Source: Pseudomonadota bacterium (GTDB lineage: Bacteria; Pseudomonadota; Gammaproteobacteria; Pseudomonadales; Halieaceae). Taken from it: DNA of 39,244 bases. A program made the position numbers and the translations under genes. The stretch spans positions 1 through 39,244 of the forward strand of contig PKCZ01000032.1 of NCBI GenBank assembly GCA_002862405.1. The letters are read 5' to 3'. This document shows, in pieces, positions 3,105 to 18,428 of this stretch. Below the pieces are notes generated by a model. The model had not been told where the DNA came from and made no database searches. It saw nothing but the letters and a program-made list of their open reading frames with translations. Numbering within the stretch: the stretch's first letter is position 1; each line of letters starts with the position of its first letter.

Positions 3105-3116
3105 CAGTCATTAACC

Positions 3117-3162
3117 AGCCCCCCTGTAAACCTGCACGGGTGGGCTCAGAGTAACGCAGGTT
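3117..3162 (+). promoter_or_regulatory. rpsO leader pseudoknot, probable S15 autoregulatory element
   Basis: Two interleaved helices can form just before the rpsO ribosome-binding site. Stem 1 pairs 3117-3124 (AGCCCCCC) with 3138-3146 (GGGTGGGCT), with one bulged U. Stem 2 pairs 3129-3135 (AACCTGC) with 3156-3162 (GCAGGTT) perfectly. The order 5'S1-5'S2-3'S1-3'S2 is an H-type pseudoknot with loops of 4, 2 and 9 nt, and the Shine-Dalgarno GGAG (3163-3166) abuts stem 2. E. coli S15 represses its own mRNA through a pseudoknot at the same place. The pairing is seen in the sequence; S15 binding is inferred. Confidence 0.6.
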
Positions 3163-3173
3163 GGAGAAATATC

Positions 3174-3443
3174 ATGGCACTAGATGCAGCACGTAAAGCT
3201 CAAATCGTGGACGACTACAAGCAGTCTGACGGTGATACAGGATCACCCGAAGTTCAGGTCGCTCTGTTGACCGCAAATATTGAGCAGCTACAGCAGCACT
3301 TTAAAGAGCATGCGCAGGATCACCATTCACGTCGTGGTCTCATTCGCATGGTTAACCAGCGCCGTAAACTGTTGGATTACTTGAAGCGCAAGGACACATC
3401 TCGATACGCAACACTGATTAAGCGTCTTGGCTTGCGCCGATAA
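3174..3443 (+). CDS. rpsO: 30S ribosomal protein S15
   Basis: S15 is a primary 16S rRNA-binding protein of the 30S platform. The product is 89 residues, exactly the E. coli length, and contains the conserved stretches [20 protein letters not shown] and [16 protein letters not shown]. The ATG follows GGAG by 7 bases. It sits between truB and pnp, the standard gammaproteobacterial order, with a stem-loop terminator after its stop. The 69-bp leader is folded into a likely autoregulatory pseudoknot, described separately. Confidence 0.98.
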
Positions 3444-7906: not shown

Positions 7907-7918
7907 AAGAACAATAAT
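7907..7918 (+). promoter_or_regulatory. (AAN)4 motif in presumed symporter leader
   Basis: The plus strand reads AAG-AAC-AAT-AAT, four uninterrupted AAN triplets. This is the form of the Hfq distal-face/Crc target (CA motif) known from Pseudomonas. It lies about 58 bases before the DUF4212 start at 7977. Whether it is inside the transcript is unknown because no clear promoter was found, and one such 12-mer is expected by chance in a window of this size. Confidence 0.3.
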
Positions 7919-12375: not shown

Positions 12376-12888
12376 CTAGGCCACTGTCACATCGTTGATA
12401 TCGATGTCCTGACACAGCGAAATCGAGTGATGCTTGAGTTTACCGCGAAGCGTACCAAGATCATCCAGTCCTGGCACCTTGTGATCAGCCCCCAGTAGCT
12501 CAATCATCGGTTCCACGACAAAGAGGCGTTCACTAATGCCCGAATGCGGAATACGAAGGTCGATATCGTGAATTAGCTGCTCGCCCATTTGAATGATGTC
12601 TAGATCAATACAACGCTCGCCCCAATGCCGCACTTTTACGCGCCCCATGGCTTGCTCAATCGCCTGAAGCTCAACCAGAAGTTGTCGTGGTCTTTCAGTG
12701 TAGAGGCAAGTTGCGACCGCATTAAAAAACGGTGGTTGATCCTGGGGGCCCATTGGATGCGAGATAAAAACACTTGAGACACGTAATCCGGTCAGGCCCT
12801 GTAATCGCGACAATTTGAAACACGCCTCTTTAAGTTGCTGAGGTGGATTGTCGAGATTAGAACCCAGCGCGATGACCGTTAGTGTCAT
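12376..12888 (-). CDS. folK: Hydroxymethyldihydropterin pyrophosphokinase (HPPK)
   Basis: HPPK transfers pyrophosphate from ATP to 6-hydroxymethyl-7,8-dihydropterin in folate synthesis. The 170-residue protein has the N-terminal ALGSNL, the ISHPMGPQDQPPFFNAV loop, and the signature RHWGERCIDLDII that holds the magnesium-binding aspartates. Its ATG overlaps the pcnB TGA (ATGA), so the two are translationally coupled, as in many gammaproteobacteria. Confidence 0.95.
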   Translation of the reverse strand: MTLTVIALGSNLDNPPQQLKEACFKLSRLQGLTGLRVSSVFISHPMGPQDQPPFFNAVATCLYTERPRQLLVELQAIEQAMGRVKVRHWGERCIDLDIIQMGEQLIHDIDLRIPHSGISERLFVVEPMIELLGADHKVPGLDDLGTLRGKLKHHSISLCQDIDINDVTVA

Positions 12889-14183
12889 TGGCTACGCTTT
12901 CTCCGGCGGAGCCGTCGCTTGCGCTGCGGACTCTCAGTCGCCGGCAAACTGCCAACCACATCGGGAAACAGCTGTTGCTGTTCTTCCCAGAATGATACGG
13001 TCGACTTCAGTTCTTCCGAGGACTCGGATCTTAGCAATAACAGATCAAATGCAGCTCTGAAGCGTCGTTGCGACAAGACCGACTTCACTCGCTTTGAGGA
13101 GCATTTTTCGAGCCTGGGCTGAAGCTCCCAAATTTCCCTCACGGGAATCGAGAATCGTTTGGGGATGGACACTCGTTGCAACGTGACCGTGAGTACCTGT
13201 TGGCTAGCTGCATTGATGGGCGATCCCTGGTGGGCACCAGCGCTGGCAATATCACGACCTTTGGCAGCAACCGCGGGCCACAACAATGCACCGAGGAGGA
13301 AAGCCGGTGTCACCGGCTTTCCCCTAGCAATGCGTGCATCCGTGTTCGCCATCGCCTTAAGAATAAGGCTTCTCGATGACGGCTCATTCATCGCCCCGAT
13401 AGCCTCAGGGAAGAGAGGCTCCAGTAGCCCGTGCTTTGCTAGATGCTCTATCGTAGGTGCTGCAAATCCGGCCATAAAGAGCTTGAGCGTCTCGTCGAAC
13501 AGGCGCGTAGCGGGAATATCGGCTAACAGGTGCAAGCATTGGCTAATGGCCGCCTGGCTCGTTTCCTCTATGGTGAAACCGAGTTTTGCTGCGAATCTGA
13601 CGACCCGAAGCATCCGAACTGGATCTTCGCTATACCGAGTAGCCGGGTCGCCAATTACTCTAACGAGCCGCTGTCGGATGTCTTCTATTCCATCGAGGTC
13701 GTCAAGAATAAGTTTATTGACTGGATCCAGGTAGAGCGCGTTGATGGTGAGATCGCGCCGCGCCGCGTCTTGGTCAAGCGTTCCGTAGACATTATCGCGA
13801 AGTAACAGTCCTTTATGAGACTTAACGGCGGTTTGAGGGGCTCCATCACCGTGGTGACCACGGAAAGTCGTTACTTCGATGATCTCTCTATCCATGCGCA
13901 CGTGGACAATCTGAAACCGTCGCCCAATTATGCGCGACCCGCGAAATAGGGCAACGACCTGCTCCGGGGTGGCATTGGTTGCGACATCAAAGTCTTTTGG
14001 TCGCCTCCCCAAGAGCAAATCTCTAACGGCGCCACCAACGATGAATGCGCTGTAGCCATTGTCACAAAGTCGCTCGACGACAGAGACCGCAGCGCGCGAC
14101 AGCGCCGTGTGATCAATGAGCTTGCTGGAATCAATGGTTTGCAAAGTAGAGGACTCGAAAGCGACAAGCCGCGATCTTATCAA
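12885..14183 (-). CDS. pcnB: Poly(A) polymerase I
   Basis: PcnB adds 3' poly(A) tails that mark RNAs for decay. The 432-residue product has the class II nucleotidyltransferase head with VGGAVRDLLLGRRPKDFDVATNATPEQ near residues 49-73 (catalytic aspartates in DFD), the RRDLTINAL block, and a very basic tail (RKRRLRRRKRSQ). That basic tail and the PcnB-like body separate it from tRNA CCA-transferase. The only possible start before the conserved region is a TTG at 14183, with no Shine-Dalgarno; a stop lies in frame 40 bases upstream. E. coli pcnB is also limited by a rare weak start (AUU). A terminator ends 18 bases upstream of this start. Confidence 0.92.
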   Translation of the reverse strand: MIRSRLVAFESSTLQTIDSSKLIDHTALSRAAVSVVERLCDNGYSAFIVGGAVRDLLLGRRPKDFDVATNATPEQVVALFRGSRIIGRRFQIVHVRMDREIIEVTTFRGHHGDGAPQTAVKSHKGLLLRDNVYGTLDQDAARRDLTINALYLDPVNKLILDDLDGIEDIRQRLVRVIGDPATRYSEDPVRMLRVVRFAAKLGFTIEETSQAAISQCLHLLADIPATRLFDETLKLFMAGFAAPTIEHLAKHGLLEPLFPEAIGAMNEPSSRSLILKAMANTDARIARGKPVTPAFLLGALLWPAVAAKGRDIASAGAHQGSPINAASQQVLTVTLQRVSIPKRFSIPVREIWELQPRLEKCSSKRVKSVLSQRRFRAAFDLLLLRSESSEELKSTVSFWEEQQQLFPDVVGSLPATESPQRKRRLRRRKRSQ

Positions 14184-14201: not shown

Positions 14202-14240
14202 AAAAAAAGAAACTGGGGGAAGTTACCTTCCCCGCCCAGG
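14202..14240 (-). terminator. Intrinsic terminator of the predicted sRNA
   Basis: On the minus strand GGGGAAG (14233 to 14227), a GTAA tetraloop of the GNRA type, and CTTCCCC (14222 to 14216) form a perfect 7-bp stem. CTG (near 14239) and CAG (14215 to 14213) can extend it across a bulge. TTTCTTTTTTT follows at once. It lies about 210 bp after the cbrB-like stop and 18 bp before the pcnB start, so it ends the sRNA and may limit read-through into pcnB-folK. Confidence 0.82.
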
Positions 14241-14295
14241 TCCGTAGTGACACATATTATTTTTATTTGGCCGCTTATTCTTATTTTGGCTCTGT
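14202..14295 (-). ncRNA. Predicted CrcZ-like small RNA between cbrB-like gene and pcnB
   Basis: The predicted minus-strand transcript runs from about 14295 (12 bases after a sigma-54 -12 element) to the T-tract at 14202, about 94 nt. It contains two 12-nt runs of perfect AAN triplets: AAT-AAG-AAT-AAG (14285 to 14274) and AAT-AAA-AAT-AAT (14267 to 14256), 6 nt apart. It ends in an intrinsic terminator. In Pseudomonas the sRNA CrcZ lies exactly between cbrB and pcnB, is made from a CbrB-activated sigma-54 promoter, and soaks up Hfq/Crc through A-rich CA motifs. The position, promoter type and motifs all match. The RNA here is far shorter than CrcZ (about 400 nt), so it would be found by architecture rather than similarity. 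Expression and Hfq binding are inferred. Confidence 0.62.
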
Positions 14296-14304
14296 CTCCG
14301 TCAC

Positions 14305-14320
14305 TGCATTTGCTATGCCA
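14305..14320 (-). promoter_or_regulatory. Sigma-54 (RpoN) promoter for the predicted sRNA
   Basis: The minus strand reads TGGCATAGCAAATGCA. The invariant GG (-24) and GC (-12) are separated by exactly 10 bases. The rest fits TGGCAC-N5-TTGC(A/T) except for T in place of the last C and A in place of the first T. It points into the intergenic region toward pcnB. The sigma-54 activator gene lies immediately upstream. Confidence 0.65.
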
Positions 14321-14339
14321 CTCATATTTTTACTATGAA

Positions 14340-14352
14340 AAACAATATGTTA
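14340..14352 (+). promoter_or_regulatory. Candidate IHF site
   Basis: AAACAATATGTTA matches the IHF consensus WATCAANNNNTTR with one mismatch (A for T at position 3). It lies about 50 bases upstream of the predicted sRNA start, between the activator half-sites and the sigma-54 promoter, where DNA bending is normally needed. Confidence 0.45.
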
Positions 14353-14383
14353 ATTTTTTTTGGGCGTCCGATTACTAGGGGTT

Positions 14384-14423
14384 TATTACAAAAGTGTTAC
14401 CGAAGTAAACCCCCTGATGTTAC
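14384..14423. promoter_or_regulatory. Cluster of TGTTAC half-sites (candidate CbrB upstream activating sequence)
   Basis: TGTTAC occurs at 14395-14400 and 14418-14423, TATTAC at 14384-14389, and an inverted near-copy GTAAAC at 14405-14410, so one pair reads TGTTAC-N4-GTAAAC. The cluster is about 90-130 bases upstream of the predicted sRNA start. I recall TGTTAC/GTAACA as the half-site reported for Pseudomonas CbrB; the spacing here should be compared with that. A longer inverted repeat, GGGGTTTA (14378-14385) and TAAACCCC (14406-14413), overlaps it and could also fold at the 3' end of the cbrB-like mRNA. Confidence 0.5.
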
Positions 14424-14443: not shown

Positions 14444-15826
14444 TCAGGCAGCGCCTCGCTTACGCTTTCTGGGTAGGTCGAATCTTTGTCTTCGCTCCCA
14501 AAGGCACTTTCTACTGATCCCGAGCTTCTGAGCTAGCTCTGTTTCGTTCATCGCATCTTGATTCTCTAAAACAAAACGCTGGAAGTAATCTTCGAGCGAC
14601 AATTCCTCTGCCTCGGTTTCGCGCTCGACTCTCGATTGAGAAGCTTCAAGCTTTGGCTTCTCAGAAGGTGGACTGCTAAATGCCGATACAACATAGGTGT
14701 GACTCGGAAGGTTGAGGTCGCTCATGGCAATGACATTGCCATCTGCCATAACAAGCGCTCGTTCGATCGTGTGTTCTAGCTCTCGTACATTACCGGGCCA
14801 GCCATAGTCTGACAGCGCCTTGTAGGCTTCGTCTGATAATGCCTTCGGCTCTACCCCAAGGCGTCCAGCCACGCGTTTCACCAGCCAGTTGGTAAGACCC
14901 TCGATATCATCGCCACGCTCTCGTAACGGCGGCAATTCAAGTCGCAACACATTGATGCGGTGAAACAGGTCACGTCGGAAGGCATCGGTATTTTCAAGTT
15001 CCATCAGGTTCCTGTGTGTTGCACAGATGAGCCTGACATTGACGCTGGCACTTTCAACTGAGCCAATACGTCGAATCTCTCCCTCTTGAATGAATCTCAG
15101 CAATCGGGCTTGGGCGGAAGCTGGAAGTTCCCCAATTTCGTCGAGAAACAGTGTTCCTCCATCGGCTGCTTCAATCAGTCCTACACGCTGTGCATTCGCG
15201 CCAGTAAACGCGCCTTTCTCGTACCCGAACAGCTCAGATTCAATCAATGTTTCGGGGATCGCAGCGCAATTGACCGAAATGATCGGTTTACTCGCGCGCT
15301 CACTGGTCTGATGAATGTGGCGGGCAACGAGCTCCTTTCCGGTCCCCGTCTCACCAATAATTAAAACGGTCGAGCTCGCTTTAGCTGCCTTGTTTGCCAT
15401 CGTCATCAATGCGCGCATGCCCATAGATTTACCAACAAAGGCTTCGACAGCAGGCGCCGCGTTCTCCGCGCTTTGCGATGTGGCAAGCGATGCGCGTCTA
15501 ATAGCGTCAAGGACATCTCTGATAGGGGCAGGCTTCGCCCAGTAATCACGCGCACCTGCCTTCATCAGCTCTACGGCTGATCTTAGCGATGCATGTTGGG
15601 CATGGATAAAGACGGGAACAGGATACAAATCGGTGATCAGCTGGTTCGCGGCGGCCTCATTGCGTCCGGGGTCTAGAATTGCAGCGTCAACACGCTCCGC
15701 GGTCTTAATCGCGCCCAGCGCCGAAAAGGGCGATGCTTTGATTACTTTCAGTCCCTCAGCCGCTAGATCGTCAGCTGTATGTGTGGCACTGATAGGGTCA
15801 TCGTCGAGCAAGAGAACCGTAAGCAT
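14444..15826 (-). CDS. cbrB: CbrB-like sigma-54-dependent response regulator
   Basis: This 460-residue NtrC-family activator has a receiver domain (1-115), an AAA+ domain and a Fis-type helix-turn-helix. The AAA+ domain has GETGTGKE (Walker A), GAFTGA (sigma-54 contact) and [10 protein letters not shown] (Walker B). The C-terminal [19 protein letters not shown] strongly resembles Pseudomonas CbrB, and the gene sits in the CbrB position before pcnB-folK-panBC. The receiver keeps D8, D9, D52 and K98 but has DPGRNE after D52 in place of the usual DLx[11 protein letters not shown] replaces the strand that should carry the conserved Thr/Ser. No sensor kinase is adjacent: gluQ ends 51 bp upstream, where cbrA stands in Pseudomonas. 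The ATG is preceded by GGGAGG. Confidence 0.82.
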
Positions 15827-15877: not shown

Positions 15878-16756
15878 TTAAATGTCACCTAGGTAACACT
15901 TATCGTGTTGAAAAGTTACATTTTTTAAGTTTAGCGAATCTCGCCGCCAGTTCACGGTCGCCAGCTGCAAAATATCCTCAACGCAATCCACGTCTTGTGG
16001 GGGAGTTGGCTGTCCTAGAAAGGCCAAGGCGCGGCGAAGATTGGCGTTCGGAGTATCGCTATCAATCGCCTGGGCCCCGGTTTGTTTACTGAGCTTATTA
16101 CCTGATTGATCGGTGACGATGGGTAAATGACCGTACTCGGGCGACAGGCGTCCGAGGGTTTGATGAAGCATCATTTGGCGGAGGCTCGATTCAAGCAGAT
16201 CGGCACCGCGAATCACGTGGGTGTAGCCCTCATCGAGGTCATCGATTGCCGTTGCCAACTGATACGCGATCAGTCCATCCCTACGTTTAACTATGAAGTT
16301 ACTGGGTATAGCCGACGCATGCTGTTCCCCAAGAAATAGGTCCTTGACTCGGTCGGGGGCAGCACTTGGTAAATGAAAACGTAGGCTGCCTTCAATATCT
16401 TGGCGATTCCTACAGTCTGAAACGCAGGCGCCAAGCTCACCCAAGGTGGCTCTGGTGCAAAGGCAGTCGAACAAATGACCCCTATTTCTGAGTTTGGACA
16501 ATGCCTCCTCATGCGCTTCACGACGCTGGCTTTGGAAAATAATAGGCCCATCCCAGGTCAGGCCATGGCTCTCTAAGCAGTGGGGAATGGATCCGAAGCT
16601 CACTTTATCGTGGCGCGGTGGATCAATGTCGTCGATACGAAGCCGCCACTCGCCCTCATGTGATCGAGCATCGAGAAAGCTACCTAAAGCTGTGACCAAG
16701 GAGCCCATGTGAAGTGGGCCCGTGGGAGATGGAGCAAATCGTCCTCGATAGATCAA
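15878..16756 (-). CDS. gluQ: Glutamyl-Q tRNA(Asp) synthetase
   Basis: GluQ-RS is a truncated glutamyl-tRNA synthetase that lacks the anticodon-binding part and attaches glutamate to queuosine-34 of tRNA-Asp. The 292-residue protein has RFAPSPTGPLHMGSL (HIGH-like) near its start and GNKLSKQTG (KMSKS-like) in the second half. Cysteines at CLC and CVSDC form the zinc-binding site. The start is a TTG at 16756; nothing better precedes the conserved N-terminus and an in-frame stop lies just upstream. It starts 19 bp after the dksA stop, the common dksA-gluQ arrangement. Confidence 0.93.
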   Translation of the reverse strand: MIYRGRFAPSPTGPLHMGSLVTALGSFLDARSHEGEWRLRIDDIDPPRHDKVSFGSIPHCLESHGLTWDGPIIFQSQRREAHEEALSKLRNRGHLFDCLCTRATLGELGACVSDCRNRQDIEGSLRFHLPSAAPDRVKDLFLGEQHASAIPSNFIVKRRDGLIAYQLATAIDDLDEGYTHVIRGADLLESSLRQMMLHQTLGRLSPEYGHLPIVTDQSGNKLSKQTGAQAIDSDTPNANLRRALAFLGQPTPPQDVDCVEDILQLATVNWRRDSLNLKNVTFQHDKCYLGDI

Positions 16757-16775: not shown

Positions 16776-17582
16776 TTAACCTAGCTCTTGGCGTTCCTTG
16801 ATCTCTGCCAAGGTCTTGCAATCAATGCAAAGTGTCGCCGTGGGCCGTGCTTCTAACCGTTGAAAGCCGATTTCGATACCGCAGGCATCGCAGTAACCGT
16901 AATCGTCGATTGAAATTCGCTCTAGTGTGCCGTCAATCTTTTTGATCAGCTTGCGTTCACGATCGCGTGCGCGGAGCTCGAGGCTGAATTCTTCCTCTTG
17001 CGTTGCTCGGTCTGCTGGGTCAGGGAAGTTCGCGGCCTCGTCCTTCATATGACCAACGGTTTTGGTTACTTCATTTACGAGGTCGGCTCTCCAGCCCAAC
17101 AGAAGCTGACGAAAATGTTCCAGTTGCTCCTCGTTCATGTAGCTCTCACCGCGCGATGGCTTGTATGGCTTGAAGTTATCGAAGTTCTGAACCTCACCGA
17201 CAGCGCGAGCCACATTTGACGGTGCTTTTGCTTTTGACTTTGCTTTAGTCTTCGGCGCTGCCGTTGCCTTTGTCGCTGGCTTGGGTTTCGCTGCAGCTTT
17301 CTTAGCAGGCGCCGCTTTGGTTTTAGGTGGCGCCGTGGCTTTAGGCGTTGCCTTCGCAACTTTTGCCTTGGGAGCCGCTTTTGCTTTAGGAGCCGCTTTG
17401 GCTTTGGGCTCTGCCTTCGCAGCCTTCGCCTTTGGCGCTGCTTTTGCTTTCGGAGCCGCTTTGGCTTTGGGCTCTGCCTTCGCAGCCTTCGCCTTTGGCG
17501 CTGCTTTCGCTTTCGGAGCCGCTTTTGCCTTGGGAGCCGCTTTGGCTTTTGCCTTGGTTTCCGTTGTCTTCTTAGTTGCCAT
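16776..17582 (-). CDS. dksA: RNA polymerase-binding regulator DksA with basic N-terminal extension
   Basis: DksA enters the RNA polymerase secondary channel and, with ppGpp, adjusts transcription of rRNA and amino-acid genes. The last 120 residues (149-268) are a standard DksA: the coiled-coil tip DPADRA (188-193; E. coli D71, D74, A76), the EEEFSLELRARDRERKLIKKI helix, and a four-Cys zinc finger (C231, C234, C252, C255). Before it lie about 120 residues built almost only of Lys, Ala, Pro and Thr with tandem KAKAAPKAKAA units, resembling histone H1 or AlgP tails; E. coli DksA is 151 residues in total. The ATG at 17582 (MATKKTTETK) is chosen; the frame stays open further upstream but loses this composition. 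Confidence 0.9.
   Translation of the reverse strand: MATKKTTETKAKAKAAPKAKAAPKAKAAPKAKAAKAEPKAKAAPKAKAAPKAKAAKAEPKAKAAPKAKAAPKAKVAKATPKATAPPKTKAAPAKKAAAKPKPATKATAAPKTKAKSKAKAPSNVARAVGEVQNFDNFKPYKPSRGESYMNEEQLEHFRQLLLGWRADLVNEVTKTVGHMKDEAANFPDPADRATQEEEFSLELRARDRERKLIKKIDGTLERISIDDYGYCDACGIEIGFQRLEARPTATLCIDCKTLAEIKERQELG
17389..17514 (-). repeat. 63-bp tandem repeat in the dksA extension
   Basis: Two nearly identical 63-bp copies begin at 17389 and 17452, and the start of a third at 17515; the two full copies differ at about one base. Each encodes a 21-residue Lys/Ala/Pro/Glu unit inside the basic tail of DksA. Shorter AAPKAK-type units surround them. Near-identity at DNA level suggests recent duplication and a tendency to vary in length. 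Confidence 0.85.
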
Positions 17583-17690
17583 GTGGGTTTCCGTTGAAAC
17601 GCATGCGTAGTGGGGCGCAGTTGACCTGCGCGATTGGGCACGGGAAGCTATCAGAATTGAGGGCCGTTGACTAGCGGCTTTTGAGTGCGT

Positions 17691-17718
17691 TTGTAACATG
17701 GTGGCGAGAACGCATAAT
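17691..17718 (+). promoter_or_regulatory. Possible sigma-70 promoter for the M15 peptidase gene
   Basis: TTGTAA (17691-17696), a 16-bp spacer, then CATAAT (17713-17718). This would give a leader of about 25 bases. It lies in the 168-bp gap between the divergent dksA and M15 genes. It is a pattern match only. Confidence 0.35.
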
Positions 17719-17750
17719 TGCGGCTGTGTCGTGAGGTAGCAATAAGAAAC

Positions 17751-18428
17751 ATGACAGACCATTTGTTGGCATTAGGACTCTCGGAGCATGGACTGGTGGC
17801 CCATGACGAGCGCACCACGCTGGACTCCGAAGTATCACGACAGTTCGGGTTGCTTCAGCTTGACGCCAGAGCTGAAGGCTTTCAGCTAGTCGCTGCTTCC
17901 GGCTACCGCTCTTACGAATCGCAATTGACTATTTTCAATGCTAAGTGGCGGGGCGAACGTCCCGTGCTCGATGACGCTGACCGTCCGCTTAGCCGAGAGT
18001 TATATTCTGATGAGCAATGGTTGCATCGCATACTCCGGTTCTCAGCTTTGCCGGGTACATCTCGCCACCATTGGGGTACTGATCTCGATGTATTTGATCC
18101 AACGTTATTACCTGAGGATCAGAAACTCGCGTTAACGCCCAGCGAATATGGTGATAGCGGCTACTTTTCAGCACTGACTCAGTGGCTAAACCAGGCCATT
18201 GCTAGCGGACAATCTAGAGGCTTCGAGCGACCCTATGACGCTGACCGCGGGGGGGTATCCATAGAACCGTGGCACTTGAGTTACCTGCCGAGGGCGACCC
18301 AGCTGCGAGGTCATCAGTCTCCCGAGACGCTTCGTGAGTTATGGGATCAATCACCACACCTAAGACCAGAGGGGTTTGAGCTGCTCTCTCGGTGTTTGGA
18401 AGAGATCTTTGTTCGATACGTGCAGTAG
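17751..18428 (+). CDS. M15-family D-alanyl-D-alanine carboxypeptidase (VanY-like)
   Basis: This 225-residue zinc peptidase of the VanY/DacB type trims D-Ala from muropeptides. The visible signature comprises SGYRSYESQ (50-58), SRHHWGTDLD (104-113; zinc ligands H106 and D113) and EPWHLSY (172-178; catalytic E172, ligand H175). No signal peptide or membrane anchor is visible, so it appears cytoplasmic, unlike most relatives. That could suit recycling of cell-wall peptides; mpl lies 1.3 kb away. The ATG at 17751 is chosen; a TTG 33 bases upstream is possible. AATAAGAA, an AAN-type motif, fills the gap between the purine-rich GAGGT and the ATG. It ends 2 bp from the convergent pfp stop. Confidence 0.85.
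   Translation: MTDHLLALGLSEHGLVAHDERTTLDSEVSRQFGLLQLDARAEGFQLVAASGYRSYESQLTIFNAKWRGERPVLDDADRPLSRELYSDEQWLHRILRFSALPGTSRHHWGTDLDVFDPTLLPEDQKLALTPSEYGDSGYFSALTQWLNQAIASGQSRGFERPYDADRGGVSIEPWHLSYLPRATQLRGHQSPETLRELWDQSPHLRPEGFELLSRCLEEIFVRYVQ

Follow-up and report, generated by a model that had tools for sequence, protein, structure and literature searches.

A predicted 93-nt decoy RNA between cbrB and pcnB, a probable stripped-down counterpart of CrcZ in a genus in which no CbrA was found

Between the cbrB-like gene and pcnB of the window (the whole 39,244-nt stretch of DNA analyzed here) lies what is probably the gene for a CbrB-activated, sigma-54-dependent decoy RNA of Hfq and Crc. At 93 nt it would be a stripped-down counterpart of CrcZ, controlled in the window's genus by a CbrB which is free of its kinase. 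CbrB and sigma-54 would drive transcription of the RNA, and each of its two 12-nt A-R-N runs would occupy the distal face of one Hfq hexamer, with Crc docking on. Through this occupation the RNA would draw Hfq/Crc off the mRNAs for catabolism and uptake, whose ribosome binding sites are A-rich, and catabolite repression would be relieved, a phenotype which we infer along with the dependence on CbrB and RpoN. Besides the runs the molecule would have a short stem which presents run 1 and, toward its 3' end, a conserved module and an intrinsic terminator. The first-pass annotation had already proposed a CrcZ-like RNA, and the conserved unit of sigma-54 site and AAN runs behind cbrB supports that interpretation; what it overlooked is the apparent absence of CbrA and the altered receiver of CbrB throughout the genus.

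The cbrB-like/pcnB intergenic gap is 260 nt long and is read on the minus strand, where two GTAACA sequences are followed in order by an IHF-like site, a GG-N10-GC element, two (AAN)4 runs separated by 6 nt, a GC-rich hairpin and a U-tract. The features of the locus are:

15878..16756, minus strand: gluQ, tRNA glutamyl-Q(34) synthetase [NF004314, 303.6 bits], directly upstream of cbrB, the expected place of cbrA
14444..15826, minus strand: cbrB-like NtrC-class activator, 460 aa, from Pfam and alignment; retains Asp-52 and has Ala in place of the conserved receiver Thr
14418..14423, minus strand: CbrB half-site R1, GTAACA, exact string, the GTAACA pair being conserved across loci
14395..14400, minus strand: CbrB half-site R2, GTAACA, exact, 74 nt upstream of the sigma-54 site, R1-R2 spacer 17 nt
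14340..14352, minus strand: IHF-like site TAACATATTGTTT by string match, one mismatch to the IHF consensus used for comparison, YAANNNNTTGATW
14305..14320, minus strand: sigma-54 promoter TGGCATAGCAAATGCA (GG-N10-GC), exact string
14202..14294, minus strand: predicted sRNA of 93 nt, CrcZ counterpart, running from the sigma-54 site to the U-tract, from covariance model R1, alignment and fold
14270..14290, minus strand: short stem GCC (14290-14288) with GGC (14272-14270), run 1 in its loop, from pairing in genus rows
14274..14285, minus strand: A-R-N run 1 AATAAGAATAAG, predicted Hfq distal-face site, from string and genus conservation
14256..14267, minus strand: A-R-N run 2 AATAAAAATAAT, predicted Hfq distal-face site, on the same evidence
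14227..14243, minus strand: conserved 3' module GGACCTGGGCGGGGAAG, a part of which lies 5' of the terminator stem, from the alignment
14213..14239, minus strand: terminator hairpin CTGGGCGGGGAAGGTAACTTCCCCCAG with GUAA loop, from string and fold
14202..14212, minus strand: terminator U-tract TTTCTTTTTTT, from the string
12885..14183, minus strand: pcnB, poly(A) polymerase [TIGR01942, 451.2 bits]

By string position on the minus strand all feature coordinates of the first-pass annotation are exact, and the GUAA loop conforms to the GNRA cap which it had described. Its RNA of about 94 nt is computed here as 93 nt (14294-14202), the start being set by the rule that the C of GC in a sigma-54 site is -12. 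The TGTTAC/GTAACA half-sites survive in part: there are two exact GTAACA sequences in the same orientation, but the TGTTAC-type site F1 is weak (TGACAC, two mismatches, spacer 17). Measured against the order of CbrB sites given in an excerpt of PMC8871633, TGTTAC-N12-14-GTAACA-N15-19-GTAACA, the GG-N10-GC element and R1-N17-R2 are exact and F1 is the weak member.

In the predicted fold the RNA is open apart from the terminator and the 3-bp stem around run 1, and its overall folding stability is that of shuffles (z -0.08), as expected for an open decoy. RNAalifold, applied to an alignment of 59 RNAs (60 references minus L115, a duplicate of L002), returned the terminator stem only, with both-side changes in two of its seven pairs. 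A 10-codon mini-ORF in the predicted RNA was discarded, as by eye the alignment showed it not to be kept in relatives. Elsewhere the window carries an Rfam S15 leader (3116-3230, plus strand, 45.3 bits) and, at 16776-17762 on the minus strand, a protein whose N-terminus is a long tail of PKAKAA repeats; we take it to be DksA-like, with the tail resembling the basic tail of histone H1.

On its two strands together the window holds three (AAN)4 runs, two of them in the cbrB-pcnB gap, and two runs appeared in 9 of 5000 dinucleotide shuffles of the gap; the first-pass annotation had put the chance expectation at about one such run per window, a pair in one gap of this kind not being expected. A sigma-54 site with (AAN)3 arose in 7/5000 shuffles. 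Among the 15 sigma-54-like sites (at least 9/12) in the window, only that of the cbrB-pcnB gap has an AAN run close behind. The comparison of gaps between genomes is the stronger test against chance. Ninety-five loci were gathered as the stretch behind the best cbrB-like match (window, L001-L009, L081-L165); three were dropped, namely L081, which duplicates the window, and the pair L009/L159, which come from one contig ending inside cbrB, and L115, from the same genome as L002, was left among the 92 counted. Gaps behind other NtrC-family genes served as control, 65 of the 71 loci L010-L080 having at least 250 nt. Of the 92 cbrB gaps 84 have AAN runs behind a sigma-54 site, versus 2/65 control gaps, and with four AAN units required the figures are 79/92 versus 0/65; the eight loci in which the unit is absent behind cbrB are L006, L008, L143, L145, L146, L147, L160 and L162. 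Upstream of the unit we found GTAACA-N14-20-GTAACA (at most one mismatch) in 73 of the 84 loci versus 0/71 random control stretches, the full three-site CbrB order (at most two mismatches) in 38/84 versus 0/71, and the IHF-like site (at most one mismatch) in 48/84 versus 16/84 after one shuffle each. The first-pass annotation had staked its reading on relatives with cbrB-pcnB retaining the AAN runs and GG-N10-GC; both are kept, the runs behind the site, in each of the 52 family loci where cbrB and pcnB are neighbors (one of these being the window, which stands in for its copy L081).

Covariance model R1, derived from the 59-RNA alignment, finds one match each in 52 of the 57 genomes of the window's genus (E <= 0.01), in a scan with stricter filters by which weak extra copies could be lost. 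The genomes it misses (G012, G015, G026, G028 and G032) are 54-83% complete and have no cbrB match better than E 1e-83. In the order scan it matches 56/293 genomes from 25 of 118 genera, so the short form of the RNA is not universal in the order, and in the class scan 2/369 genomes, one being the window's own. Second units are present in the same gap in L002, L004, L007, L109 and L131, and second or third copies of the short RNA, either within that gap or on a different contig, also occur in G073 (C160, another contig) and G469, a situation like that of CrcY/CrcX.

All 49 aligned genus RNAs possess two A-R-N runs. Their A cells are A in 391/392 cases, the R cells comprise 384 A and 8 G among 392, and the N cells are not A in 317/392; as read from the alignment, the runs follow the A-R-N rule for the Hfq distal face set out in an excerpt of PMC6422490. 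The spacer GGCC is invariant in the 49 RNAs and can pair with the GCC ahead of run 1. The three pairs of this stem are standard in 49/49 genus rows, with 12 cells as U-G wobble, and the stem is not kept in 10 aligned rows outside the genus; variation by U-G wobble only hints weakly at a real helix. In cbrA-bearing loci the number of runs ranges from 2 to 12, the high values perhaps including later units, since runs were counted over 400 nt where the 3' module is lacking.

The strongly kept 3' module, CCTGG-N1-3-GGGG, has no role in a plain decoy model and counts against it. One might suppose that the molecule is mainly a base-pairing sRNA in which the A-R-N runs hold Hfq and the module (GGACCUGG-N-GGGG) is the mRNA seed, and a single RNA could do both jobs. 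The distribution of the module speaks for this: it occurs in 49/49 genus RNAs, in 14 of the 31 cbrA-bearing loci with the unit and in one of four other loci without cbrA, was not found in L149, a Pseudomonas-type locus which matches Rfam CrcZ, and retains bases before the stem which the terminator does not need. However, the A-R-N runs are, together with the module, the most tightly kept part of the RNA, and base-pairing Hfq sRNAs usually bind through U-rich 3' ends, A-R-N sequences being on the mRNA side. We consider predominant base-pairing unlikely, and worth keeping in view.

By position and, by all signs, by function the 93-nt RNA would be the counterpart of CrcZ, not a member of the Rfam CrcZ family. 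The Rfam search, run at the gathering threshold and at E 10, returned CrcZ only as a match of 10.1 bits (RF01675, E 1.2, model positions 275-380; gathering cut-off 95), and the CrcZ model had no match over the whole genome, just as had been foreseen for similarity searches. Because the 14 control genomes were also silent with this model, L149, with 306.8 bits the only match among 20 order-mate loci, was taken as the positive control. With CrcZ of P. aeruginosa and other Pseudomonas the RNA shares its place between cbrB and pcnB, the sigma-54 promoter, CbrB half-sites, IHF-like site and intrinsic terminator, more than one A-R-N run, and the presence of the partners Hfq and Crc. CrcZ is described in an excerpt of PMC4063720 as a 407-nt RNA with six A-rich stretches which titrates Hfq by its distal face, whereas here there are 93 nt and two runs; further differences are the 3' module, not seen in L149, and a genome in which no CbrA was found. 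CrcY and CrcX of P. putida, A. vinelandii and P. syringae are, in the excerpt of PMC8871633, further CbrB-driven A-rich decoys and resemble the second units in relatives; unlike these multiple decoys, one copy per genome was found in the window's genus (52 of 57 genomes). As for the regulator, the locus is that of CbrA-CbrB and the CbrB ortholog is 56% identical to the L149 CbrB outside the receiver, but no genus genome gave a match to the kinase, and the receiver residues Asp-52, Thr and Lys are not all kept.

RsmY and RsmZ, which are under GacA, differ from CrcZ-type decoys in motif and promoter type, as well as in protein and activator. The logic is shared, a repeated-motif RNA titrating an RNA-binding regulator, RsmA (excerpt of PMC8871633).

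The partner proteins are present. Over residues 1-68 Hfq hardly differs from that of P. aeruginosa, and the genome encodes RpoN. There are three Exo_endo_phos matches, of which L168 was compared with solved structures and has P. aeruginosa Crc as its best PDB match [4jg3, 173.5 bits]. Relative to the XthA-like L166, L168 has Glu replaced by Asp in CFQDTR and has lost Asp and Asn in CGGWELAW. These positions presumably correspond to the catalytic residues of ExoIII, and on these comparisons L168 is assigned as Crc with its nuclease residues replaced. The frames beside it we take to be RNase PH and PyrE. A Crc ortholog exists in 52/57 genus genomes, as a contig-edge fragment in G056, and was not found in G001, G007, G013, G025 and G041. 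Among the RNA-contacting residues of P. aeruginosa Crc (alignment, numbering shifted by 3), K135, K139 and R141 are kept and R138N, R140K, K155P, M156R and R196T are changed; such changes would count against the decoy model. So does the number of four A-R-N units per run, as six fill the Hfq hexamer in the case of amiE (excerpt of PMC6422490).

Over the genome (AAN)4AA is not enriched (24 matches versus 24 for the reversed pattern), and hence no Hfq/Crc target set was found. Follow-up covered the 11 of the 24 loci with the motif on the plus strand; a reading frame starts close to it in two of these 11, L189, whose frame is presumably catalase-peroxidase-like, and L198. The only other (AAN)4 of the window, at 7907-7918 on the plus strand, starts 40 nt ahead of the ATG of the gene before a sodium:solute symporter; we take this gene to be DUF4212-like. 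It is a candidate Hfq/Crc target, at a distance too great for a clear case. An A-R-N-rich short RNA-like stretch with a strong terminator lies at about 1450-1600 of L179 (G339, from another gammaproteobacterial family), before an argC-like frame. Lacking a cbrB match and having by eye a sigma-70-like promoter, it was put to one side as a different case, and may possibly be an independent Hfq decoy.

In eight of nine named loci a distance of 3.2-3.5 kb separates cbrB from the upstream gluQ, and the interval contains an open frame of about 1000 aa. The L002 protein in this place has HisKA and HATPase_c domains (an SLC5 domain is below the Pfam threshold). Along its length it shares 50% identity with the protein encoded upstream of cbrB in G080, whose locus matches Rfam CrcZ; for these reasons it was taken as CbrA. 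With it as query, an ortholog was found in 32/40 other genomes (E < 1e-170) and in none of the 57 genus genomes (best E 3e-38, 29% identity over part of the sequence), the single-contig genomes G006, G030 and G053 included. The eight SSF matches of G000 are all in open frames of less than 600 aa. In 48 of the 49 genus loci gluQ is directly before cbrB, and the remaining locus is cut by the contig end.

The window CbrB matches Pfam Sigma54_activat with 231.9 bits, Response_reg with 27.6 (cut-off 30.2) and HTH_8 with 21.1 (cut-off 22). It aligns over its full length to kinase-bearing CbrBs, and we assign it receiver, AAA+ and HTH domains on that basis. Compared with the CbrBs of four kinase-bearing relatives it has 30-32% identity in the receiver and 56-63% in the rest of the protein; the receivers of the relatives are 70-83% identical to each other (three comparisons). 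Asp-52, the phosphorylated CbrB residue according to the excerpt of PMC8871633, is intact along with Thr and Lys in 41/41 cbrA-bearing loci (39 genomes, given the pairs L002/L115 and L009/L159, with cbrA of L001-L009 recognized by the long upstream frame) versus 0/49 genus loci. The genus has three types: Asp-Ala-Lys (17, the window's), Glu-Thr-Lys (13) and Gly-Leu/Ser-Arg (19). Of four other loci without cbrA, L134 (Glu-Thr-Lys), L163 (Glu-Val-Lys) and L164 (Asp-Asp-Leu) are altered and L153, whose genome is 75% complete, has all three residues. Glu at residue 52 arose in two cbrA-less lineages outside the genus (L134, L163), apparently independently. At the phosphorylation site of an NtrC-like regulator Glu mimics phosphate (NmpR D54E; excerpt of PMC6211767). 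A quick tree of CbrB without the receiver (92 rows) gives at least five changes of cbrA status, four of receiver state and four of residue 52, counts which are rough because 30/88 inner branches are weak and there are long ones among the tips.

With no CbrA found and the receiver altered, the promoter architecture is kept and the usual input is not. The genus CbrB would most likely be active without a phosphorylation switch for the same reason, making the decoy a standing buffer, or one which answers another signal. The window CbrB retains Asp-52, which another kinase could phosphorylate, and together with Lys this residue is kept in 17/49 genus loci. One could accordingly picture a CbrB still switched by a non-cognate kinase or acetyl phosphate and a decoy which remains an on-off device. 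Set against this are residue 52 as Glu in 13/49 and Gly in 19/49 genus loci, the divergence of the window receiver relative to the rest of its CbrB, and the replacement of the conserved Thr by Ala; we think such switching improbable, if still a serious competitor to a CbrB working without phosphorylation.

That the stretch is a regulatory 5' UTR of pcnB and gives no free sRNA would fit its position directly ahead of pcnB on the same strand. However, the terminator and U-tract end it before pcnB, the gap to pcnB is as much as 1.1-1.6 kb in order mates (L128, L144, L150), the unit of promoter and runs is mostly found no more than a few hundred nucleotides from cbrB, and of 12 loci where pcnB was not matched behind cbrB, L148, L153, L154 and L155 have the unit; a leader is thus very improbable. 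A functionless relic or chance A-rich stretch, for which the loss of CbrA in the genus is the sole support found, can hardly be right, being contradicted by its conservation in 52/57 genus genomes under the A-R-N constraint and by the 2/65 control gaps with the unit.

To return to the decoy, the broader history may be as follows, although the case for it is evenly balanced. The CbrB-CrcZ-Hfq/Crc system would be an ancient, order-wide feature which in some lineages was repeatedly freed of its kinase, cbrA having been cleanly deleted between gluQ and cbrB. The receiver would then have decayed or, in the three lineages where Glu replaced Asp-52, come to mimic phosphate. In the window's genus, the largest such genus among those surveyed, the RNA would have shrunk to a two-site, single-copy 93-mer bearing a second, conserved functional module, and the switch would have become a constitutive Hfq/Crc rheostat.

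The excerpt of PMC8871633 states that the cbrA-cbrB-crcZ organization has been described in no genera other than Pseudomonas and Azotobacter, being unique to the Pseudomonadaceae, and that of PMC6296734 that CbrAB is exclusive to this family; no report of the unit outside these genera is among the literature matches listed, as judged by titles and abstract starts. What is new is that the unit occurs beyond the Pseudomonadaceae: within one order, 34 family codes were examined, 33 of them by a single genome each, and 27 show it, the code of G080 being that of the Pseudomonas-type locus; its bearers include the named genera Pseudohaliea, Spongiibacter and Dasania. Also new are the absence of a detectable CbrA in the 57 genus genomes and the altered CbrB receiver switch in all 49 genus loci. 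Across the order the loci with the unit form a natural series in which the decoys have two A-R-N runs or more, and by which the fewest Hfq sites sufficient for a decoy, and the action of CbrB without its kinase, can now be tested. The loss of cbrA together with the phospho-switch residues is a natural experiment in which a two-component system was dismantled and its output RNA kept.
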